Below are positions 3,838-17,767 of a stretch of DNA of 19,563 nt, piece after piece. Source of the stretch: Deltaproteobacteria bacterium RBG_13_61_14 (GTDB lineage Bacteria > RBG-13-61-14); the NCBI GenBank assembly GCA_001797815.1, contig MGQK01000099.1:30957-50519 (forward strand), written 5' to 3'. The notes beneath the pieces are model-generated. The model was not told where the DNA came from, ran no database searches, and saw only the letters and a program-made list of their open reading frames with translations. The position numbers and the translations under genes are program-made. Positions within the stretch are counted from its first letter, which is position 1; each line of letters opens with the position of its first letter.

Positions 3838-4263
3838 CTAGTCCTTGGTCGTTTCCGATCGGGACTTGAGATTGGCGCGGCTTTCCGACAAACGGATTAA
3901 CAAGAGCTCCAACTCTCCCAGGCGAATCGGCTTGTTCAGATAGCCATACACGCCTTGGGCCAGGGCTTCTTTGAGCGGCAGAATCGAATTGTGTCCGCTC
4001 ATGATCACGAGGTCGGCCTCGGGATAATGCCGGTGAATGTCCCGGATTACTTCGCCCCCGCGGCCGTGAGCTAAATTGGTATCCACCAGAATCACGTGCA
4101 CCGGCAATCCTTTTCCGGCGGAGGCCCCCAGCAGCTCGGAAACCGAGGAAAAAGTTTGAACCTGGTGGCCCAGGTCATTCAGAAAGCTCTCCAGGGTTTT
4201 CAGCACGATGAGTTCATCGTCAACGATGTCAATGCGCATATTCAATATTTTTTGAACCGGCAT
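3838..4263 (-). CDS. Single-domain response regulator (CheY-like receiver)
   Basis: The product is a 141-residue stand-alone receiver domain with no output domain. It has the acidic pair D15-D16 in IVDDE, the phospho-acceptor D61 in VILVDTN, the switch serine S89 in IMSGH and the conserved lysine K111 in YLNKP, so it should be phosphorylatable. An in-frame ATG exists at 4356, but the stretch before 4263 contains the sigma-54-type promoter, and the ATG at 4263 has an AGGGAG ribosome binding site, so I start there. No histidine kinase is in the window. Such proteins relay phosphate or bind target proteins; the target here is unknown. The 5' end and upstream region are duplicated at 9594-9965. 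The 72-aa gene follows. Confidence 0.85.
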   Translation of the reverse strand: MPVQKILNMRIDIVDDELIVLKTLESFLNDLGHQVQTFSSVSELLGASAGKGLPVHVILVDTNLAHGRGGEVIRDIHRHYPEADLVIMSGHNSILPLKEALAQGVYGYLNKPIRLGELELLLIRLSESRANLKSRSETTKD

Positions 4264-4334
4264 TGGGCTCCCTTTATATCCGGTGGCTAACCATCCCTGG
4301 TCTGGAATTTGGCTCCACATGCCCTTCTTGAAGG

Positions 4335-4350
4335 AGCAAACGCTATGCCA
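4335..4350 (-). promoter_or_regulatory. Sigma-54 (-24/-12) promoter of the response regulator
   Basis: On the minus strand this reads TGGCATAGCGTTTGCT. Against the RpoN consensus TGGCACRN4TTGCW, all positions except C6 match, and GG and GC have the exact 12-nt offset. It predicts transcription starting near 4323 and a ~60-nt leader before the ATG at 4263. An enhancer-like array lies upstream and an NtrC-type activator gene is in the window. Confidence 0.75.
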
Positions 4351-4433
4351 GAGCAAAACATTTTTTGATTATTAAAGTTTTTCCAATAGTTAGGTGAATC
4401 AGGAAGAAATTAAAAAAAAGAGTTGACTTGGAC

Positions 4434-4483
4434 TTGGCAACTGTTGCTAATAACAATTGCTAACAAGGGTTAGGAATTGCCAA
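4434..4483. promoter_or_regulatory. Heptamer array, candidate enhancer for a sigma-54 activator
   Basis: Four related heptamers lie on the + strand: TTGGCAA (4434), TTGCTAA (4444), TTGCTAA (4457) and TTGCCAA (4477). They form two imperfect dyads, TTGGCAA-N3-TTGCTAA and TTGCTAAC-N4-GTTAGGAA. The array is roughly 110-160 bp upstream of the predicted start of the -24/-12 promoter, the usual place for activator binding. The same heptamers with the same spacing are at 9882-9931, where the spacer of the second dyad has changed but its arms have not. Confidence 0.55.
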
Positions 4484-4517
4484 CTTTTCGGAAGGAATTT
4501 AACAAGGGGTCAGACCC

Positions 4518-5432
4518 ACTACTGTCCCAACGTTAGATGATGATCGGTTCATAACATTATGAAGATAAATGGTTTTTCAGTCAATTCGCGATTTTTCGAT
4601 TTGAATTCGGAATTGTTCCGCGGCCATACTTTCGCATCGCTGCGAAAGGAGATGGCCGATGAATTCCGGGAAACCCATTTTTACTCAACTGATGGACTTT
4701 CTTCCTGCTTACGAATTTCAAAAGTGCGTCAAGCGTTATCATGGTCATTACAAGGTCCAAAGCTTTTCCTGCTGGGATCAATTTCTCTGCCTAGCCTTCG
4801 CCCAACTGACTTATCGGGAAAGCTTGCGCGACATCGAAGTCTGTCTGCGCGCCGCCAAGACCAAGCTCTATCACTTGGGATTTCGCGGCCAGGTCTCCCG
4901 CAACACCTTGGCCAACGCCAATGCGGTCCGCGACTGGCGCATCTACGCCGATTTCGCGCGGGTGTTGATCGTTATCGCGCGCAAGCTTTACGCCCACGAG
5001 GACTTCGGCTTGGAACTCCAACAGACCGCCTACGCTCTCGATTCCACCACCATCGATCTTTGCCTGGCGCTCTTTCCCTGGGCCAAATTTCACCAACGCA
5101 AAGGCGCGGTGAAACTGCATACGCTACTCGATCTGCACGGCTCCATCCCCACCGTGGTCTGGATTACCTCGGGTAAAGTGCACGATGTCAAGGTCCTCGA
5201 CGAACTTCTGATCGAGACCGGCGTGATTTACGTAATGGATCGCGGCTATCTCGATTTCGCCCGGCTACACCGCCTCCAACGAGAATTGGCTTTCTTCGTC
5301 ACCCGCGCCAAGAAGAACTTCAACTTTCGTCGTCTCTACTCGGCGCCGGTGGGCAAAAGCCGCGGATTGTTGTTCGATCGGACCATTGCCCTGCAAGGCT
5401 TCTATGCGGCCAAAGATTATCCCGACAAATTG
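4518..5432 (+). mobile_element. Truncated IS4-family insertion sequence
   Basis: The left end is placed at about 4518, where the duplicated response-regulator segment stops and ACTACTGTCCCAACG begins. This border is inferred, not proven by a visible inverted repeat. The 140 bp before the transposase start hold no other gene. The right part is missing: transposase similarity ends near 5432 and sequence of the neighbouring membrane-protein gene follows. No matching right terminal repeat or target-site duplication can be seen. The element is therefore a dead remnant. Confidence 0.7.
4659..5432 (+). pseudogene. IS4-family transposase, 3'-truncated
   Basis: The ATG at 4659 has a GGAG ribosome binding site. 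The first ~258 codons resemble IS4-family DDE transposases with a DUF4372-like N-terminus: conserved start (FTQLMDFLPAYEF), CWDQFLCLAFAQLTYRESLRD, VSRNTLANAN, first catalytic Asp D128 in ALDSTTIDLCL, and second Asp D194 in VMDRGYLDF. Family members run to about 380 residues with the catalytic Glu in a WQVELFFKWIK-like helix, which is absent here. After YPDKL (near 5432) the open frame continues to 5696 only as antisense of the next gene, so I end the feature there. Without the Glu it cannot catalyse transposition. Confidence 0.85.
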
Positions 5433-5660
5433 CTAGTTGTTTTTCCGATTGAGCGGAACAACCAGGAGCACGCCACCGACGACGATCGCCCCCACGCCAG
5501 CCCAGACCGGGATGTTGACCGTCTCCCGGTCCTTGACCGACAGCTCAATCGAGCCCAGCTTAGCCTTATGGGTCTCCTTGGTGTACCGGAAACCGCCATA
5601 CGCCAGCCCCAGGATGCCGGCCGCGATCAGAGCGATTGCCACTATCTTGACTGCGTTCAT
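5433..5660 (-). CDS. Small two-helix membrane protein, C-terminus altered by IS remnant
   Basis: The 75-residue protein has a hydrophobic N-terminal helix (KIVAIALIAAGILGLAYGG), a short polar middle (KETHKAKLGSIELSVKD) and a second hydrophobic helix (WAGVGAIVVGGVLLVV). I recall similar small proteins, sometimes labelled DUF3185-like, in envelope-stress neighbourhoods of Desulfobacterota and Nitrospirota; the function is unknown. The ATG at 5660 has a strong AAAGGAGG ribosome binding site. It starts 16 nt after the ompA-type gene stop, so the two are surely co-transcribed. The last residues (PLNRKNN) and the TAG stop look supplied by sequence at the IS4 breakpoint, replacing the native tail after the second helix. 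The protein may still insert in the membrane. Confidence 0.75.
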   Translation of the reverse strand: MNAVKIVAIALIAAGILGLAYGGFRYTKETHKAKLGSIELSVKDRETVNIPVWAGVGAIVVGGVLLVVPLNRKNN

Positions 5661-5676
5661 TTCGTTTCCTCCTTTC

Positions 5677-6693
5677 CTATTTCACGACGATGGTAAACAG
5701 GACTCTCATGTTGGACTTGGCGGCCCTTGACTCAAGGTCCGCAGGATACTGTTCATACGTGGCCGGTCGGTTCTCGCCATATCCGATTTTCGTTAGCCTT
5801 TCCGGGGCAATGCCTCCCTCGATGAGGGCTTGTCTGACCGTGGTTGCTCTTCTTTCGCTCAACTTTTGGTTATATTCATAACTGCCGCTGGCGGAGGTAT
5901 ACCCCGCAATCAGGATATTCAGATTCGGGTTGGCTTTCAGAGTCCGGATGTTCTTAACCAGAATCTCTTTCCCGAGCGGGGTAAGGGCCGATTTATCGAA
6001 TTCGAAATGCGTGTCCAGGAGCTCGATCAGAATCACTTTCGGCTTTGGTTTGGGAGCCGGCGCCGGTGCGGCCTCCACGGGGCGGGGGGCCGGGGCTGGG
6101 ACTGCGGCTGGAGGAGGGGCTGGAGGCGCGGCTGCGACCACCTGCTTCTTACCGCCTAACAGGATGGTCACGCCTCCGGTGTATTCCAGATTGCTGCAGG
6201 GCTTGTCAAATTCGCATAACAAATCATGCCGGACGTCGGCCCGCAGGGCCACATTTTCGACGATGAAGTACTTGAGCCCAGCGCCATAGTCGATCATCCC
6301 CCGCTCGTGGTCATTGAGGCCCGACGGGTCGTTAATTTGAATGCCCCCGAAACCGGCCGCCAGGAACGGCACGAATTTCTTTTTCGGCATGAAATTATAC
6401 AGGATGTCTCCCCCGTAGCGGAAGACGCTGACCTCCCGGCCGTCGAACCCGCGCGCATTGCTCTCGGTGGGGACATAGCCGAACAGGCCCTCCGCTCCCC
6501 AGTGTTCGGTGAAATTGTAGCCGGCGCGCAGTCCATAGTACCAGTTGTTGTCCAGGTGCTGAAAACATGCAAACATATAACCGCCCACGAACGGCGACAG
6601 AGTTACAGCGCCGGCCCGGTTCTGGGCCAATGCGGGGGTGGCGATAGCAAGCAGGAACAAAGCGAGCGGTAAGAGCATTGTTTTTTTTCGCAT
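5677..6693 (-). CDS. OmpA-family outer-membrane protein (beta-barrel plus peptidoglycan-binding domain)
   Basis: The 338-residue protein has a signal peptide (1-23, cleavage after ALA), then a region of alternating aromatic/Gly strands (about 28-180: FVGGYMF, WYYGLRAGYNF, YGGDILYNF, YGAGLKYF) typical of an eight-stranded OmpA-like barrel. A Pro/Ala-rich linker follows (about 188-220), then an OmpA C-terminal domain (about 225-337) with FEFDKSAL, the NQKLSERRATTVRQAL helix and IGYGENRP. Family members anchor the outer membrane to peptidoglycan. Cys160 and Cys166 could form a disulfide. The ribosome binding site AAGGAGAATCCC is good. It lies between the Ig-like lipoprotein gene and the small membrane protein gene, in one envelope block. 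Confidence 0.9.
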   Translation of the reverse strand: MRKKTMLLPLALFLLAIATPALAQNRAGAVTLSPFVGGYMFACFQHLDNNWYYGLRAGYNFTEHWGAEGLFGYVPTESNARGFDGREVSVFRYGGDILYNFMPKKKFVPFLAAGFGGIQINDPSGLNDHERGMIDYGAGLKYFIVENVALRADVRHDLLCEFDKPCSNLEYTGGVTILLGGKKQVVAAAPPAPPPAAVPAPAPRPVEAAPAPAPKPKPKVILIELLDTHFEFDKSALTPLGKEILVKNIRTLKANPNLNILIAGYTSASGSYEYNQKLSERRATTVRQALIEGGIAPERLTKIGYGENRPATYEQYPADLESRAAKSNMRVLFTIVVK

Positions 6694-6713
6694 TTGGGAT
6701 TCTCCTTTTCAAG

Positions 6714-6751
6714 TGGGCCTTCCCGTATTTCCGTAATACGGGAAGGTCCCA
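6714..6751. terminator. Intergenic hairpin between Ig-like and OmpA-family genes
   Basis: CTTCCCGTATT pairs perfectly with AATACGGGAAG around the loop TCCGT; allowing one bulged T, the stem extends to about 16 bp (tgggc with gtccca). It lies in the 90-nt gap after the Ig-like gene. There is no T-run on the minus strand, so it could be a processing or stabilising hairpin rather than an intrinsic terminator. Confidence 0.5.
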
Positions 6752-6783
6752 CGTGTCTTGTTGGTCACCCAATACCTCATGCC

Positions 6784-8592
6784 TTACGGTATGGTAACGA
6801 TATCGGAAATTAAGGTAACCGCGCCGGCGCCTGAGGGTTGAGCTCCGGACAACAATCGGCCATTGATCTGGGCGCCGGTATCGATCGAGATGTCGTCATT
6901 AGCCAGGATGGTTCCCTCGAAGGCCGTGAACTGTCCAATCGTCGCGGCGCTGCCCACCTGCCAAAAGACATTGGCAGCGTCGGCGCCGTTAATGAGCATC
7001 ACATTGCCTCCGGTTGCGCAAGGAACGGATGCCCCGCAACCGACCGTGGTGAGGGTGGACGCGATTTGGAAAATCCAGACGGAATTCGCATCTCCTTGTC
7101 CGTCAAGGGTGAGATTTCCTGACGCGATACTGAGGGAGGACGTGGATTTGTAGATCCCGGGAGGAAGGGTTGTTCCCCCTTGATCTCCGGAGACCGTGGC
7201 CGGAGCAGGAACGGTTCGTCCCGCCGCGTCGTTAAACGCAACCGTCAGGGCGGCTTTGGCGGCAGTTAGCCCGGCGGCATCAATCGCCGCGCATGCCGGA
7301 CCGGCCGCATCAACCGCGTAGACCGTCCCGTTGACTTCTGGGCAGGTTAGGGGTGAGCTGAATCCGGTGATAAAGGCGCCCGAGGCCGGGCTCACCCCAA
7401 TATCCCCGGTAATCGCGGAAGTCGGAACGTTGGAGATTCCGTCGCCGGCCAGAATCACGAAATTGGCGGCCGCGCCCAGGGCTACCGGCGCTGGATTTAT
7501 CACTACGGCGGCGGCCGTAGTAAAACTCCAGACATAATTATTTAACAGTCCATTGCCTCCCAGGTCCTTGGCCCCGGTCGTAATCGTGGCGGTATATTTG
7601 GTGTTGACGGCGAGAGGGCTTAAGGGGGTAAAGGTCGCAATGTCGGTCAATAAATTGTAAGTGACGATTCCGACCACAGGAGTTAGGCCAGGCCCGGTCA
7701 GCGTGAAGTTGGCGGTGATGATCGTTCCAGGATTCATCGCCTCGCTGAAGGTGGCGTTGACGGCCGTGTTGATCGGCACCCCGGTGGCAAGATTAGCGGG
7801 GACGACTAAAATCACCGTGGGTCTGGTGGTGTCTGGCGTTGACCCGGTGGTAAAGCTCCAGACGAAGTCACTTCCCAGTGCAATGCCTGCCAGGTCCATG
7901 GCCCCGGTGGTAATCGTGGCAGTATAGACGGTGTTGATGGCGAGAGGGCTGGATGGGGTAAAGGTCGCAATCACGCCCACATAGGTCACCGTGCCTGAAA
8001 TCGGCGTGGCCCCTTGCTTTAAGGTAAAGGTGGCGGTGGTGATCGTGGCCGGGTCCATCGCCTCACTGAAGGTGGCGGTGACGGCCGTGTTGATCGGCAC
8101 CCCGGTGGCAAGATCGGCAGGGCTGACGAGAATCACTTCGGGTTGGGGGGTGTCTGCCGTTGCACCCGTGGTAAAGATCCATACAAAGGGAATTGCCAGT
8201 GAAACGCCTGCGGGGTTCTTGGCTCCGGTGGTAATCGTGCCGATATAGGTGGTGTTTGGTGTGAGATCGCTGTCCGGTGTAAAAATTGCAATGTGGTTTG
8301 TTCCATCATAGGTGACGGTTCCGGTTACGGGAGCTGTGCCCGGTCCGGTCACCGTAAAGGTTGCGGTGTTGATCGTTGCCGGGTCCATCGCCTCACTGAA
8401 GGTGGCGGTGATTTTCCGGTTGATCGGCACCCCGGTTTCAGTATTAGCCGGGGTTACGAAAGTCACGGTGGGACGGTGGCGATTCCAACCATCGCCATCT
8501 CCGCACTCATCATCTTGGCACGTGCATCCGATCATAAAAACAGACAGGAGCGCTGCCATCGCCCAAATCGCATAGCCTTTCAATTTTCGCAT
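6784..8592 (-). CDS. Lipoprotein with three Big_5 Ig-like domains and a DUF3494 (ice-binding-like) domain
   Basis: The frame opens at 8664, but the ATG at 8592 has the ribosome binding site (AAGGAG) and starts a lipoprotein signal (MRKLKGYAIWAMAALLSVF, then MIGC with Cys23), so I use it: 602 residues. After an acidic Cys-rich linker come three ~100-residue Ig-like repeats (about 40-143, 150-249, 256-360), each with P-A-N/D...TGVPIN, ATFSEAMDP/NP, and ending in a W-(I/S)-FTT strand; this is the Big_5 pattern. Residues ~368-600 match DUF3494: LGAAANFVILAG, TGDIGVSP, PGIYKS, FQI, FWQVGSAATIG, GTILA and NGRLLSGA. That fold includes ice-binding proteins, but many members are likely adhesins or surface proteins of other function. 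It is predicted to be attached to the outer membrane. The ice role is not implied by sequence alone. Confidence 0.88.
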   Translation of the reverse strand: MRKLKGYAIWAMAALLSVFMIGCTCQDDECGDGDGWNRHRPTVTFVTPANTETGVPINRKITATFSEAMDPATINTATFTVTGPGTAPVTGTVTYDGTNHIAIFTPDSDLTPNTTYIGTITTGAKNPAGVSLAIPFVWIFTTGATADTPQPEVILVSPADLATGVPINTAVTATFSEAMDPATITTATFTLKQGATPISGTVTYVGVIATFTPSSPLAINTVYTATITTGAMDLAGIALGSDFVWSFTTGSTPDTTRPTVILVVPANLATGVPINTAVNATFSEAMNPGTIITANFTLTGPGLTPVVGIVTYNLLTDIATFTPLSPLAVNTKYTATITTGAKDLGGNGLLNNYVWSFTTAAAVVINPAPVALGAAANFVILAGDGISNVPTSAITGDIGVSPASGAFITGFSSPLTCPEVNGTVYAVDAAGPACAAIDAAGLTAAKAALTVAFNDAAGRTVPAPATVSGDQGGTTLPPGIYKSTSSLSIASGNLTLDGQGDANSVWIFQIASTLTTVGCGASVPCATGGNVMLINGADAANVFWQVGSAATIGQFTAFEGTILANDDISIDTGAQINGRLLSGAQPSGAGAVTLISDIVTIP

Positions 8593-8752
8593 TGGTTTCT
8601 CTCCTTCTCTCGAGATTGTCCAGCCTCTAGTTGAAATTGAGAGGCGGCCTGTTTGGTAACCCATCCTAACGCCACCTTCACTTCCCTATCAAGATTTTTC
8701 GTCAATGATTCTCCTTTCTCGTTAAGACAGAGCCGCCGATTCGAGGCCTGCG

Positions 8753-9253
8753 TTATTTTTGCGCCGAGGCCACGAGGAGGCTCCATTCCGCCTCGGGGTT
8801 GTCGTTTACGGTCAGGGAAAGGGAATACTTTCCGGCCGCGAGTTCCGCCGGAAGGGCAAATTCCATGGGGCCGATCTTTTCACCTTGGGCCACGTTGCGG
8901 TCGAGGAGCGAAACCACGCGACCGTCCTGGTCTTGGATCGTGACCGCGACCTCAGCGTCCTGGGGGGCTGGGCCGCGAAGACGGAAGGTGAACTTCTGGC
9001 CGGGCGCCGCGTTCATGGCCGTGCCGGATTCGTAAATGCCCCCGGTGGAGAAGTCAACCGCCAGCGCCACCACGCCCGGGATCACCCCCACGAAAAACCA
9101 CAGGCAATCCAGCACCAGAGAGGTCGCGTCAATCCTGCCGCCGTTCTGCCCTCTACGCTCGGGATGCATAATATACCCGCAGTTGATGGCGGCTAAGGTC
9201 AACGCGACCAGCATCAGCAGCACCAATCCCTTGTTCTTCAATAACCGTTTCAT
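8753..9253 (-). CDS. Conserved secreted or lipoprotein-like protein (166 aa)
   Basis: The start at 9253 has a strong ribosome binding site (AAGGAGG). The N-terminus is a signal peptide (MKRLLKNKGLVLLMLVALTL) reaching Cys25; the residues before the Cys are AIN rather than the usual lipobox (L-A/S-G/A), so lipidation is uncertain. Next is YIMHPERRGQNGGRID followed by a hydrophobic stretch ending in PGVVALAVDFSTGGIY (about 46-74), a pattern I recognise from small uncharacterised envelope lipoproteins of proteobacteria. The C-terminal ~90 residues look like one beta-sandwich domain (FTFRLRG, VAVTIQDQDG, KYSLSLTVND). Function unknown. It lies between the lmo0937-type gene (110 nt upstream) and the Ig-like lipoprotein gene (160 nt downstream), same strand. 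Confidence 0.75.
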   Translation of the reverse strand: MKRLLKNKGLVLLMLVALTLAAINCGYIMHPERRGQNGGRIDATSLVLDCLWFFVGVIPGVVALAVDFSTGGIYESGTAMNAAPGQKFTFRLRGPAPQDAEVAVTIQDQDGRVVSLLDRNVAQGEKIGPMEFALPAELAAGKYSLSLTVNDNPEAEWSLLVASAQK

Positions 9254-9316
9254 GATCGTTCGCCTCCTTGGCAGTACAACCGGATCGTCAAGCGATCAGG
9301 CTGTCCTGCGGTTAAT

Positions 9317-9348
9317 GATACCAACAACAACAACTGGGCCTTGGTATC
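9317..9348. repeat. Inverted repeat between lmo0937-type and lipoprotein-like genes
   Basis: GATACCAA (9317-9324) and TTGGTATC (9341-9348) form an 8-bp stem around a 16-nt loop. It is just past the stop of the 52-aa gene on the minus strand. There is no T-run; it may be an operator or an RNA hairpin. Confidence 0.35.
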
Positions 9349-9363
9349 TAAATTAACTGCTTC

Positions 9364-9522
9364 TTAAAACGCCCGCCGCCCCCGAATGACCCTGACCAGC
9401 ACCGCGATAATGGCGGCCACCAGCAGGAGGTGAATGAGCCAAGCTATCCCGCTCACCGTGACGTGGGTTATAAACCCCAACAGCCACAGAATTACCAGGA
9501 TTGCGACAATGGTCCAAAACAT
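9364..9522 (-). CDS. lmo0937-family mini membrane protein (52 aa)
   Basis: The reverse complement from the ATG at 9522 encodes MFWTIVAILVILWLLGFITH, then a short turn (VTVSGIAWLIH), a second hydrophobic helix (LLLVAAIIAVLVRVI) and a basic end (RGRRAF). This two-helix pattern with the starting MFWTI is typical of the lmo0937/DUF5670 family, small membrane proteins of unknown function often found among stress genes. The ribosome binding site is AAGGAGAATCAA directly before the ATG. A perfect 12-bp palindrome TTTGACGTCAAA lies at 9571-9582, about 50 nt upstream, and could be an operator. The truncated response-regulator copy ends 44 nt upstream, so transcription from its sigma-54-type promoter would run straight into this gene. 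Confidence 0.85.
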   Translation of the reverse strand: MFWTIVAILVILWLLGFITHVTVSGIAWLIHLLLVAAIIAVLVRVIRGRRAF

Positions 9523-9566
9523 TTGATTCTCCTTACCGGGTTGCTCCGGCCCATTGGCGACTTATA

Positions 9567-9710
9567 CTAATTTGACGTCAAACATATTCCCCGGGAAAAA
9601 GTTTGAACCTGGTGGCCCAAGTCATTCAGAAAGCTCTCCAGGGTTTTCAGCACGATGAGTTCATCGTCAACGATGTCAATGCGCATATTCAATATTTTTT
9701 GAACCGGCAT
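9567..9710 (-). pseudogene. Truncated response-regulator copy (first 39 codons plus foreign tail)
   Basis: This frame starts at the same ATG and ribosome binding site as the intact gene at 4263 and is identical in protein through HQVQTFS. It then runs into RGICLTSN and a stop. It keeps the D15-D16 acidic pair but lacks the phospho-acceptor Asp, Ser and Lys, so it cannot be a working receiver. A 47-residue peptide may still be made, because promoter and ribosome binding site are intact. It probably serves now only as a leader upstream of the lmo0937-type gene. Confidence 0.9.
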
Positions 9711-9781
9711 TGGGCTCCCTTTATATCCGGTGGCTAACCATCCCTGGTCTGGAATTTGGCTCCACATGCCCTTCTTGAAGG

Positions 9782-9797
9782 AGCAAACGCTATGCCA
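9782..9797 (-). promoter_or_regulatory. Sigma-54 (-24/-12) promoter, copy 2, facing the envelope block
   Basis: This is identical to the site at 4335-4350: TGGCATAGCGTTTGCT on the minus strand, one mismatch to the RpoN consensus with exact GG/GC spacing. The predicted start is near 9770. The transcript would cross the truncated response-regulator frame and then enter the lmo0937-type gene at 9522 and the rest of the envelope block. Confidence 0.7.
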
Positions 9798-9881
9798 GAG
9801 CAAAACATTTTTTGATTATTAAAGTTTTTCGGATAGTTATGGAAAGGACGAGGAGATTAAAAGAAGAGAGTTGATCTAAGC

Positions 9882-9931
9882 TTGGCAACTGTTGCTAATA
9901 ACAGTTGCTAACGATGGTTAGGAATTGCCAA
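9882..9931. promoter_or_regulatory. Heptamer array, copy 2, candidate enhancer
   Basis: TTGGCAA (9882), TTGCTAA (9892), TTGCTAA (9905) and TTGCCAA (9925) have the same order and spacing as at 4434-4483. The three base changes relative to copy 1 all fall outside the heptamers (one before the third, two in the spacer of the TTGCTAAC/GTTAGGAA dyad). The array is about 110-160 bp upstream of the predicted start. Confidence 0.55.
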
Positions 9932-9973
9932 CTTTTCGGAAGGAATTTAACAAGGGGTCAGACCCCAAGTTAA

Positions 9974-11353
<1,380 letters not shown>

Positions 11354-13811: not shown

Positions 13812-13831
13812 TTTCGCCGGAGAATTTAGGC

Positions 13832-14034
13832 GTGGCGCCCACCCCCATAGACTTTTTCATCATCATCCTCCACTTCGTGGGCGTGGTCATCCTGGGCACC
13901 TAGTTCACCCGCTACGTGAAAAGCTCGGGCGATTTCTTCCTGGCCGGCAAGATGCTGCCCTGGTGGGCCATGGGCATGAGCCTGGTGGTCGCGGACATCG
14001 GCGCGCTCGACTTCATCGCGGTCTCGGGCCAGGG
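13832..14034 (+). pseudogene. 5' fragment of a second Na+/solute symporter gene
   Basis: The 203 bp align without gaps to 16160-16362, the start of the intact symporter gene. After a differing first 20 bp there are only about eight single-base changes. The fragment begins with GTG, has an in-frame TAG at codon 24 (13901-13903; TAC in the intact gene) and stops matching after codon 67, in CAGGG, where GAGATGGGGAGATGGGGTCAGG begins. Promoter and spacer are also related to the intact locus, so this was once a paralogous gene copy, not just a coding scrap. Most other changes are silent, which suggests it diverged under selection before it was broken. Confidence 0.92.
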
Positions 14035-14046
14035 AGATGGGGAGAT

Positions 14047-14152
14047 GGGGTCAGGCCTTGAATTCTGATTCTCGTGTGTCTTTGCGGGGCAACAATGGGC
14101 AGGTTATGCTCATCTGATGGAGGAGAAATGTCAAATGTCAAGACCTGACCCC
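14047..14152. repeat. Small element with inverted GGGGTCAGG ends
   Basis: GGGGTCAGGCCTTGA (from 14047) and TCAAGACCTGACCCC (to 14152) are inverted arms with one mismatch, enclosing ~76 bp without a gene. It abuts the symporter stump and precedes the radical SAM gene. The outer motif GGGGTCAGGTCTTGACATTT is one I associate with non-autonomous repeats of REP-associated tyrosine transposases, but no such transposase is in the window. Confidence 0.6.
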
Positions 14153-14154
14153 AA
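14088..14154. repeat. 67-bp direct repeat, left copy
   Basis: Matches 15902-15968 in the same orientation with one difference (A/G in ATGGAGG-R-GAAATG). It contains ATGGGC...GCTCAT, a short stem, and the tandem TGTCAAA/TGTCAAG before CCTGACCCC. It ends 50 bp before the radical SAM start codon. Confidence 0.93.
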
Positions 14155-14204
14155 ATCCTCAAATCCTGAAATAACATGGAGTAGACAATCGTCAGGAGTG
14201 AAAT

Positions 14205-15812
14205 ATGACCAACCCCCCAAATAAAACGCTTTTGCTGTCAAGCGTTTGTAAGCCGTTCGGGACAAAGTACTCGGATGGGTTCGGAGTCTCCTGCGAGGGC
14301 TCTCACCAGATCATGTGGGCCCAGGGAGTGTTTCGGCCAAGAGCCACCACCACCCAATGGGGGACTGATTTTATCGCGGAAAACCTGAAAATCCCCACCA
14401 CCAGCCTCCATTATCCGACGATGTCTCAATTCATCGCGGAGATCAAACAAGGATACGATTATGTCGGCATCGCCTTTGTGGCCTCAACCATGCACAAGAT
14501 GATCCCCATGGTCGAAGCCGTCCGCAAGCACGCGCCCTCAACCCAGATCATCCTGGGCGGATACGGGACCGCGCTGGGAGACGAAATCAAAAAGTACGCG
14601 GACTACGTCTGCCGCGAGGAGGGCGTGTCCTTCATGCGGAAGCTGCTGGGCGAGAAGGTCGAGGCGCCCATTGTCCAGCCGGACATCACTCAGCGGCAGA
14701 CCTTGTTCTCGATCCCGCTCCGGGGAGCTACCGGATACGTCTTCGCGGGACTGGGATGCCCCAACGGCTGCGACTTCTGCGCCACTTCTCATTACTTCAA
14801 GCAAAAGCATATCCAGTTCCTCCCGGACGGGCCGTCCATCCTGTCGGCGATCGAAGGGCTTCGCGGAAAGCATCCGGGCATGGACAAGTTCTGGATCAAT
14901 GACGAGGATTTCCTTTTGAACGAGGAACGGGGCAGGGGATTTCTCGAGGCCATCAGGAAATCCGAACTGCCGCCTCTTTCGATCAGCATCTTCAGTAGCG
15001 TCAAAGCTCTCTCCAAATATTCGGCTGAAGAGCTGGTGGAAATGGGCGTGGATTGGATTTGGGTCGGCTACGAAGGCAAGCGGTCGGGCTTTCCCAAGCA
15101 GCAGGGCAAGTCCTACCGGGAGCTGTTCCGTGACTTCCATCAGCACGGCATCAGCGTGCTCGCGTCCATGATCCTCGGCTTTGACTACCACACTCCGCAG
15201 ATCATCGAGGAGGAATTCGAGGAGCTGTTAAGTCTCCGGCCCTCCATGTGCCAGTTCCTCATCTATGGGCCATCGCCGGACACGCCCCTGCAAAAGCGGC
15301 TGAAGGCCGAGGGCCGGCTGATTCCCGAATTATTCATGGATCGGCGAAAGTACGATGGGTTCACCCTGGGCTTCGAGCATCCGCACATCGGCCAACAAGA
15401 GATGTCGCTGATCCAGCGGCGGTTGTATCAGGAGGAGTTCCAAAGGCTGGGACCCTCGGTTTTCCGCGTCGCCGAGGACTGGCTGACCGGCTATGTCCAT
15501 CTCAAAGATCACGCCCAACCCAGGGTAAGGGCCAAGGCGCAAAGATATAAAACCGACTCTCACGGCGCCATGACGCTCCTGCCCCAGTGCAAAAAATACG
15601 TGAATCAAAAGACGCAAGCCTGGATGGACAGCCTTGAGCAGAGGCTGGCCGTGGAGAACGGCCCTCTCACCCTGAAGGAAAAATTCCTGGCGAGAACCGT
15701 GATCCCGGCTCTGATCCGCTATGCGGATTTTAAGCTCCGCCATGACATCGGACAACAGCCGGAGTTCACGCGTAAAACCTTTAGGAGATCGGGGTCAGAT
15801 CGTAAGCGTTGA
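14205..15812 (+). CDS. B12-binding-domain radical SAM protein
   Basis: The 535-residue protein has an N-terminal Rossmann-like cobalamin-binding domain (about 8-155: YDYVGIAFVAST near 84, IILGGYGTALGD near 115) and a radical SAM core (about 175-400). The Fe-S cysteines are C185, C189 and C192 in CPNGCDFC (CX3CX2C). The cobalamin-ligand DXHXXG motif of methionine-synthase type is not evident, as in many members of this class. Substrate is unknown; related proteins methylate or rearrange lipids, cofactors or natural products. AGGAG six bases before ATG is a good ribosome binding site. The last residues (RRSGSDRKR) are read from sequence containing GGGGTCAG, so the original C-terminus was probably replaced. 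The gene is alone between 67-bp direct repeats, as a cassette. Confidence 0.9.
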   Translation: MTNPPNKTLLLSSVCKPFGTKYSDGFGVSCEGSHQIMWAQGVFRPRATTTQWGTDFIAENLKIPTTSLHYPTMSQFIAEIKQGYDYVGIAFVASTMHKMIPMVEAVRKHAPSTQIILGGYGTALGDEIKKYADYVCREEGVSFMRKLLGEKVEAPIVQPDITQRQTLFSIPLRGATGYVFAGLGCPNGCDFCATSHYFKQKHIQFLPDGPSILSAIEGLRGKHPGMDKFWINDEDFLLNEERGRGFLEAIRKSELPPLSISIFSSVKALSKYSAEELVEMGVDWIWVGYEGKRSGFPKQQGKSYRELFRDFHQHGISVLASMILGFDYHTPQIIEEEFEELLSLRPSMCQFLIYGPSPDTPLQKRLKAEGRLIPELFMDRRKYDGFTLGFEHPHIGQQEMSLIQRRLYQEEFQRLGPSVFRVAEDWLTGYVHLKDHAQPRVRAKAQRYKTDSHGAMTLLPQCKKYVNQKTQAWMDSLEQRLAVENGPLTLKEKFLARTVIPALIRYADFKLRHDIGQQPEFTRKTFRRSGSDRKR

Positions 15813-15966
15813 TTCCTCGCAGGGGTTTGCTTATGATTGAGGCAAGGTCAAGGCGGGGGAGGATACAATTTTCAGACGCCGACTCTCTCGTTTCAACGCG
15901 CGGCAACAATGGGCAGGTTATGCTCATCTGATGGAGGGGAAATGTCAAATGTCAAGACCTGACCCC
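15791..15966. repeat. Second GGGGTCAG-bordered segment
   Basis: GGGGTCAGATC starts at 15791, inside the 3' end of the radical SAM gene, and GACCTGACCCC ends at 15966. Between them are the stop codon, about 90 bp without a gene, and the right 67-bp repeat. The left arm matches the right arm only over GGGGTCAG plus a few bases. Confidence 0.5.
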
Positions 15967-15968
15967 AA
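15902..15968. repeat. 67-bp direct repeat, right copy
   Basis: Same sequence and orientation as 14088-14154 with one mismatch. The two copies are 1.8 kb apart and enclose only the radical SAM gene. Recombination between them would remove it cleanly. Confidence 0.93.
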
Positions 15969-15981
15969 TCCCTGATTCAGA

Positions 15982-16138: not shown

Positions 16139-16159
16139 CTGGAGCCGAGGAACTGCCGG

Positions 16160-17767
16160 ATGGCGCTGGCCGGGATAGATTTTTTCATCATCATCCTCTA
16201 CTTCGTGGGCGTGGTCATTCTGGGCACCTACTTCACCCGCTACGTGAAAAGCTCTGGTGATTTCTTCCTGGCCGGCAAGATGCTGCCCTGGTGGGCCATC
16301 GGCATGAGCCTGGTGGTCTCGGACATCGGCGCGCTCGACTTCATCGCGGTCTCGGGCCAGGGCTTCAAATACGGGATCGTGGTCGCCAACTTCGACTGGA
16401 TCGGCTGTCTGCCCCCGATCATCCTGGCCGCTTTCATCTCCGCGCCCACCTTGTGGCGGGCCGGGGTCTATACCATCCCGGAATACATGGGGCTCCGCTA
16501 CAACAACCTCGTGCGCGCCATCCAGGGCCTGCTCTGGGGACTGTTCCTGACCGCCAACCTCGGCGTCATGTTCTGGGCCACCGGGCTGATGCTCAACGAG
16601 TTCGTCCCCATCCCCGACACCCTGCTGGGCGGAACGGTGAAAGCGGTCCTCGAACCCGTCTGGGGCGAACATTGGCCGATCATGGTGCACATCATCCTGA
16701 TCGGGGTGGCGGTGGGCATTTACACCGGCTCCGGCGGGCTGTCGGCCGTGGTCATGACCGACGTGGTTCAGTTGGTGGTCATGTTCGTGGGCGGCATCGC
16801 CGTGATCGCGGTCGGGCTTTACCAGGTCGGCGGAATTTCCGGCCTGAAAGAGGCGATCTACGCGCTGGGCCCGGAATACTCGCATCATTTCGATCTCTTG
16901 CTGCCGGTGGACCACCCCAGCCCCTACCCCTGGCCGGCCATTATCTTCGGCCTGGCCTTTGTCCTGGCCCCGGCTTACTGGCTCGGCAACCAGGCCATCA
17001 TCCAGCGCACCCTGGGCGCGCAAAGCGAATGGGACGCCAAGGCCGGCACCCTCTTCGCCGGGTTCCTGCACGCGCTGATCCCGATCCTGATCGCCTTCCC
17101 CGGCTTGATCGGGCTGGCGCTTTACGCCCACGAGGTCCAGAACTCGGACCTGGCCTTCCCTTACCTCATCCACAAACTGCTTCCGGCCGGGATGACCGGC
17201 CTGGTCTTCGCCGCCTTCATGGCCGCGCTTATGTCTTCGGTGGACTCGGTGCTGAATTCCGCGGCCACGCTCTGGACCCGGGACATCTACCAGCAATTTC
17301 TTTTCCGCCGGAAAAGCGACCGCCACTACTTGACCGTGGGCCGCATCCTCACCGCGCTCTTCGTGCTCGGCGGCATTTTCGCCGCGCCGGTCGTCAACTA
17401 CTTCGAGAGCATCTACCAGGCCATCCAGAACTTCCTCACCTTCATCCAGGGGCCTAACCTCGCGCTCCTCCTCTTCGGCCTGCTCTGGAAACGCGCCAAC
17501 GGCAAAGGCGCCCTGGCCGGGCTTTTCGCCGGCCTGACCACTTCCATCGGCCTGTTCACCTTGCAGCGGTTTTATCACCTCTTCACCCAGGACGATCCTT
17601 TCCTTTATATCGCCTGGTGGAGTTTCGTCGCTTCGGTGGCCGTCACTGTTAGTGTAAGCCTGCTTACCAAGCCTCCCTCGCCCGACAAGATCCGGGGCCT
17701 GGTCTTCCGGCTGGCGCGGGAGGACCGCGAGGTGCAGGCGGCGCTGGAAAAGAGGGCGGAAGGATGA
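16160..17767 (+). CDS. Sodium:solute symporter (SSS family)
   Basis: The 535-residue inner-membrane transporter has about 13 hydrophobic segments. Family hallmarks: FFLAGKMLPWWAIGMSLVVSD (36-55), the GIYTGSGGLSAVVMTDVVQ loop (186-204) and the signature FAAFMAALMSSVDSVLNSAA (350-369), then TLWTRDIYQ, which holds the Na+-site serines around 359-363. Such proteins take up sugars, amino acids, vitamins or organic acids with Na+. The fold and the GH2-like lipoprotein downstream point to a sugar or glycoside, though this is inference. A GAGG ribosome binding site precedes ATG at 16160. Its stop overlaps the next gene by 4 bp (ATGA), so translation is coupled. A second, broken 5' copy lies at 13832-14034. 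Confidence 0.93.
   Translation: MALAGIDFFIIILYFVGVVILGTYFTRYVKSSGDFFLAGKMLPWWAIGMSLVVSDIGALDFIAVSGQGFKYGIVVANFDWIGCLPPIILAAFISAPTLWRAGVYTIPEYMGLRYNNLVRAIQGLLWGLFLTANLGVMFWATGLMLNEFVPIPDTLLGGTVKAVLEPVWGEHWPIMVHIILIGVAVGIYTGSGGLSAVVMTDVVQLVVMFVGGIAVIAVGLYQVGGISGLKEAIYALGPEYSHHFDLLLPVDHPSPYPWPAIIFGLAFVLAPAYWLGNQAIIQRTLGAQSEWDAKAGTLFAGFLHALIPILIAFPGLIGLALYAHEVQNSDLAFPYLIHKLLPAGMTGLVFAAFMAALMSSVDSVLNSAATLWTRDIYQQFLFRRKSDRHYLTVGRILTALFVLGGIFAAPVVNYFESIYQAIQNFLTFIQGPNLALLLFGLLWKRANGKGALAGLFAGLTTSIGLFTLQRFYHLFTQDDPFLYIAWWSFVASVAVTVSVSLLTKPPSPDKIRGLVFRLAREDREVQAALEKRAEG

Follow-up and report, generated by a model that had tools for sequence, protein, structure and literature searches.

A duplicated sigma-54 promoter and operator beside an NtrC-type activator gene: a predicted regulon of at least three sites in a deltaproteobacterial genome

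In a 19,563-nucleotide stretch of the genome of Deltaproteobacteria bacterium RBG_13_61_14 (the window), two sigma-54-like promoters of the same sequence each follow an array of short heptamers, and one of these arrangements adjoins the gene of an NtrC-type activator. The locus thus raises the question of whether this activator works through both arrays, and whether the duplication is what gave it more than one target. The reading favoured here, with a probability of about 85%, is that the activator encoded at 9974-11353 (minus strand) would act via a 30-bp operator on sigma-54 promoters at no fewer than three places in the genome.

The identification of the activator as NtrC-type proved sound. 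Its REC, sigma-54-interaction AAA+ and Fis-type HTH domains score above cut-offs (PF00072, PF00158, PF02954; PF25601 also matches), the GAFTGA motif is intact, and an rpoN gene was found on contig C123 (PF04552, 210.8 bits). In domain architecture and GAFTGA motif the protein resembles NtrC, AtoC and ZraR, but it falls far under all three curated cut-offs (357.1 bits against 558.6 for NtrC proper, TIGR01818; 370.1 against 714 for AtoC, NF008469; ZraR likewise). Orthologues with 58-66% identity occur in four other genomes (G002, G266, G388 and G389), of which one belongs to the same order and three belong to a different lineage, and the next group reaches at most 47%. In the first scan, the orthologues scored 566-638 bits (65% identity in G266, 59% in G002) and every other match 372 bits or less. 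G388 and G389 added two orthologues each (that on contig C23 of G388 is 66% identical), and such additions show 70-73% identity to the G266 protein. All six orthologues with an HTH share the recognition-helix signature WNRRxAAxxLxxPYSxLRxK (or PYSTFR), which is found in none of the 13 other activators, selected by GAFTGA, that were listed for comparison. A paralogue on contig C19 of G388 (L121:5039-6343) ends before the HTH and lies 8.6 kb from an operator-promoter module. A histidine kinase gene precedes the activator gene in G266, G389 and on contig C23 of G388; no kinase related to the G266/G389 type was found in the window or within about 20 kb on either side.

The promoter and array elements described by the first-pass annotation are present. 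The sigma-54-like boxes TGGCATAGCGTTTGCT occupy 4335-4350 and 9782-9797 (both minus), and the heptamers start at 4434, 4444, 4457 and 4477 in copy 1 and at 9882, 9892, 9905 and 9925 in copy 2, 111-160 bp upstream of the expected transcript starts near 4323 and 9770. With up to one mismatch, TGGCAYN5TTGCW matches only these two boxes in the window; because about one match is expected by chance, the number of boxes alone is unremarkable. What is conserved is an operator of 30 bp, TTRGCAA-N16-TTGCYAA, which does not include the fourth heptamer (4477, 9925); both window arrays have exactly 16 bp between the outer heptamers and a conserved inner core. The predicted operators or UAS (TTAGCAA-N16-TTGCCAA, minus strand) thus lie at 4434-4463 in copy 1, recognised by the pattern and the module profile, and at 9882-9911 in copy 2, which as a training member matches the module profile with 74.5 bits. 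The promoters follow at 83 bp (copy 1) and 84 bp (copy 2). These two operators are the only exact matches in the 4.74-Mb genome, and the dyad TTNGCAANNNTTGCNAA is likewise absent elsewhere in it. As a pattern for searching relatives, the 17-bp dyad alone was rejected as too loose, with chance-like matches in 19 other genomes.

Scanning the genome and its relatives for promoters near such arrays, as had been proposed, yielded ten modules in six genomes and then one more site, the third, in the genome of the window. In G002, G266 and G389 (contig C51), the layout of the window recurs: immediately past the activator stop codon come a similarly built operator and a sigma-54 box. An operator-pattern search of nine genomes added core-bearing sites in G266, G389, G388 and G387. 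The promoter lies 83-87 bp downstream of the operator in the ten modules (98 bp in G002), and eight of the ten are within 10 kb of an activator orthologue. As a control, among the pattern matches that were examined as loci, every core-bearing operator has a box at 83-86 bp, on one strand, and core-less matches have none on either strand, against a background chance of about 0.0008 per site; the pattern had itself been refined on sites that also served to test it, the exception being the additional site in the genome of the window. No operator is visible alongside the orthologues on contig C23 of G388 and contig C12 of G389, the latter at a contig end. Because the same switch with the same spacing adjoins relatives of the activator in other bacteria, the predicted module is almost certainly real, and the comparison across lineages supports a tie between this activator family and an operator with a sigma-54 promoter at fixed spacing. 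At one of the G266 sites (contig C10, L138:4005-4470), operator and promoter come right after the 3' end of a kinase gene. No forward ORF between them and a convergent gene reaches 60 aa, and a single terminator-like site occurs at 4488; this operator-promoter possibly drives a small RNA.

Overlooked at first was that the two modules of the window are not independent: both belong to a single direct repeat of about 371 bp, at 4147-4517 and 9594-9965 (both minus), with 94% identity over 371 bp. The upstream end of the repeat falls in an imperfect palindrome, TTAACTTGGGGTCTGACCCCTTGTTAA (9947-9973, minus), between the activator stop codon and copy 2. This palindrome is whole at copy 2 and has lost its left arm at copy 1, whose upstream edge lies within it. 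The other end is located inside a response-regulator gene. Copy 2 comprises half of the palindrome, the operator, the spacer, the sigma-54 promoter, the leader and the first 36 or so codons of the response-regulator gene, and it therefore holds a broken start of that gene. The palindrome is one of a dispersed family around GGGGTCWGACCCC, with 23 cores in the genome (L045-L059), often with TTAATCTAACATTT arms, and a member of this family thus abuts the duplicated segment. The leader RNA showed no excess stability (z -0.34) and no Rfam match as a conserved structure, and terminator-like hairpins in the repeat (4176-4159 and 9623-9606) were discarded, since matches of the scan were near the shuffle mean (15 vs 11.6). 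No match to the repeat DNA was found in 59 other genomes.

Divergence between the copies is uneven, with 3 differences in 83 positions of the palindrome and operator (one of them in the 30-bp operator), 17 in 52 of the spacer and 1 in 237 of the promoter, leader and coding start. For spacer versus downstream part this gives a Fisher p of 3e-13, with segment borders that were picked after viewing the alignment. The pattern would follow if selection had kept the operator in an old pair and the downstream part had recently been converted; alternatively, the spacer may be of different origin. Three orthologous loci have a site at the same activator-side position, and copy 2 is therefore probably in the old place, which would make the activator-side site the ancestral one. 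Each copy retains something intact, copy 1 the response regulator and copy 2 the palindrome, so neither is merely a fragment of the other, and the direction of duplication is one that we infer. It could be argued that the second module is a by-product of a recent segmental duplication and that copy 2 has no role. The truncated response-regulator ORF in copy 2 would fit this explanation, as would the single difference in 237 positions, which include third codon positions and suggest a recent copy or gene conversion; moreover, a second partial gene duplication in the same window demonstrates that such events happen here. However, the three orthologous loci lead one to expect a working site at the position of copy 2, and a spacer with 17 of 52 positions changed next to an operator with one change in 30 bp points to a conserved operator in an old pair. 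An idle copy 2 is thus improbable.

The ten modules were turned into a profile, from sequence only, with which 36 genomes were scanned; 24 of these, lacking a close orthologue, served as controls. Leaving aside opposite-strand echoes of training sites, the best non-training match of the profile is in the window's own genome, on contig C79 (E 3.6e-7), and the next in the 36 genomes is a partly plausible one on contig C34 of G002 (E 7.4e-4). The latter (L173:1237-1354) combines a good TGGCACAAATATTGCT box with a poor operator. On C79 a gap of 84 bp separates the end of the operator from the promoter, TGGCATAGGGCTTGCT; this operator is good in its inner core and right half but poor in its left half (GCAGCAC). 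Downstream follow a 227-aa ORF without a family match and then a gene for a single-domain response regulator, which shows no similarity to that of the window by pairwise BLAST. Also on contig C79 is an ORF with the look of a REP-associated (Y1-type) transposase (L172:12297-13247). With the C79 site found by the profile, the predicted regulon has at least three sites, one more than the two-target regulon first proposed. Nor is it supported that duplication created its multi-site character, as had been suggested: G266 has three sites and G389 two that are not recent copies of one another, and the activator-side site is common to orthologous loci. Judged from these sites, multi-site regulons are present in the relatives without duplication.

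The genome encodes many other response regulators (29 REC matches), and the attribution of the operator to the neighbouring activator therefore rests on linkage and co-conservation. Binding of the arrays by another of the NtrC-type activators would agree with this abundance and with the sites on C79, contig C10 of G266 and contig C120 of G387, none of which is beside an activator gene in the sequence examined. However, the operator is linked to the orthologue group in several genomes and the recognition helix is unique to that group among the activators compared, so that another binding protein appears slightly less probable still than an idle copy 2. That the duplication created a private regulon of two targets, an idea to which the occurrence of only two exact operator matches in the genome lends some credit, is the least likely of all, given a third site with the same spacing on C79 and two or three unduplicated sites in relatives.

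The activator at 9974-11353 acting at three or more sites is thus the preferred reading, and the genes behind the promoters indicate what it may control. That copy 1 precedes a response-regulator gene held up: the full-length single-domain protein is encoded downstream at 3838-4263 (minus; PF00072), and the DD, D, S and K active-site residues are seen in the translation. Its best match among the relatives searched has about 33% identity; against contigs of 85,000 species only six distant REC matches (27-31%) were obtained, and against plasmids only two weak ones. That copy 2 leads straight into an envelope block did not hold, because a truncated response-regulator ORF of 47 aa intervenes (9567-9710, minus), with 39 shared residues and 8 others before a stop. 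The first intact gene after promoter 2 encodes a 52-aa small membrane protein of the lmo0937 family (9364-9522, minus; NF033488 above cut-off, PF18919). Further downstream on the same strand are a lipoprotein-like envelope protein (8753-9253), a probable member of the promoter-2 block identified as an ORF with a weak Pfam match only and with paralogues and homologues, a Big_5/ice-binding-like surface protein (6784-8664; PF13205, PF11999) and an OmpA-family outer-membrane protein (5677-6693; PF00691, PF13505). No matching operator was found at the loci of the lipoprotein homologues. The gene right behind the orthologous operator-promoter of G002 encodes a lipoprotein that by inspection reads as a Big_5-type repeat protein. 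The OmpA gene is followed by a small ORF resembling the neighbour of a lipoprotein paralogue and then by a transposase-type ORF (4659-5696, plus; DUF4372, DDE_Tnp_1). At its 3' end, the transposase-type ORF runs antisense across an ORF for a small membrane protein (5433-5660, minus; resembling L068:2078-2299), and the element therefore looks truncated; no definable insertion-sequence ends were found. In the second partial duplication of the window, the 5' part of a symporter gene was copied upstream (13816-14034 and 16144-16362; 90%) and is interrupted by a stop, and 93-nt repeats (14067-14159 and 15881-15973; 88%) flank an ORF between the symporter copies (14205-15812).

In the proposed mechanism, a kinase would phosphorylate the regulator, which would then bind TTRGCAA-N16-TTGCYAA as an oligomer, loop over the 83-84 bp and open sigma-54 RNA polymerase at TGGCATAGCGTTTGCT. 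Promoter 2, beside the activator gene, would serve the small membrane protein first, and transcription from it would probably extend into the genes of the lipoprotein, the ice-binding-like protein and the OmpA protein. The single-domain response regulator would depend on promoter 1, and the C79 site would control the 227-aa protein together with another single-domain response regulator that is unrelated to the first. We infer activator binding, phosphorylation, transcript starts and operon extents, and assume operon continuity past the first gene. The order activator-operator-promoter would be ancestral; the duplication in this lineage would have copied the operator, the promoter and the start of the response regulator as one segment, and the block-side response-regulator copy would have decayed to a fragment. 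It is conceivable, if rather doubtful, that the activator switches on single-domain regulators at two sites (copy 1 and C79) which compete with it for phosphate or bind its kinase and so exert negative feedback, the duplication having put a feedback gene and envelope genes under identical control. The feedback role is a guess for which the precedent is loose. In the CckA system (PMC9430884), a response-regulator-like protein gives negative feedback on the kinase, an imaginable likeness, but that system belongs to another lineage.

Contrary to the suggestion that the arrangement lacked a description, an activator gene beside its own operator and sigma-54 promoter, with a small multi-site regulon, is standard (PMC4641369). 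In Desulfovibrio vulgaris, activator genes are co-localised with their sigma-54 promoters and most regulons comprise one to four operons (PMC4641369, PMC3333781); as here, the operator is upstream of the promoter, and many targets there concern the cell exterior (PMC4641369, PMC3333781). However, the validated sites of that organism are mostly inverted repeats of 4-6 bp, 3-8 bp apart, whereas here the outer heptamers are 16 bp apart and enclose a conserved inner core. The comparison of motifs covers the text, the logos being figures: the sole TTGC in the main text of PMC4641369 is a -12 element, and PMC3333781 has none. The PrsK-PrsR PEP-CTERM regulon is similar in that an NtrC-like regulator is combined with enhancer and sigma-54 motifs that precede surface-protein genes at a fairly constant distance (PMC1569441, PMC9850573). 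Its motif, however, includes TTTACA, and the spacer measures 62.8 +/- 10.6 nt (PMC1569441), compared with TTRGCAA-N16-TTGCYAA and 83-87 bp here, and unlike PrsR the window activator is below the cut-off of the PrsR model (TIGR02915, 327.7 bits against 502.6). A literature search by terms, which cannot prove absence, found no paper on the TTRGCAA-N16-TTGCYAA operator. Since such activators and regulons are standard in Desulfovibrio, the PEP-CTERM system is comparable, the operator was not found in the literature searched and the activator scores below the PrsR cut-off, the type of gene control is known and the example is new. The best reading is an uncharacterised NtrC-family regulon with a predicted operator.

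The duplicated pair illustrates that operator and promoter can persist while the spacer between them diverges. For an uncharacterised NtrC-type family in at least two distant lineages, the analysis provides a predicted operator, a recognition-helix signature and a spacing rule. The prediction is made from sequence alone and is backed by an independent match, the C79 site; the regulon could be tested with one purified protein and short DNA probes.
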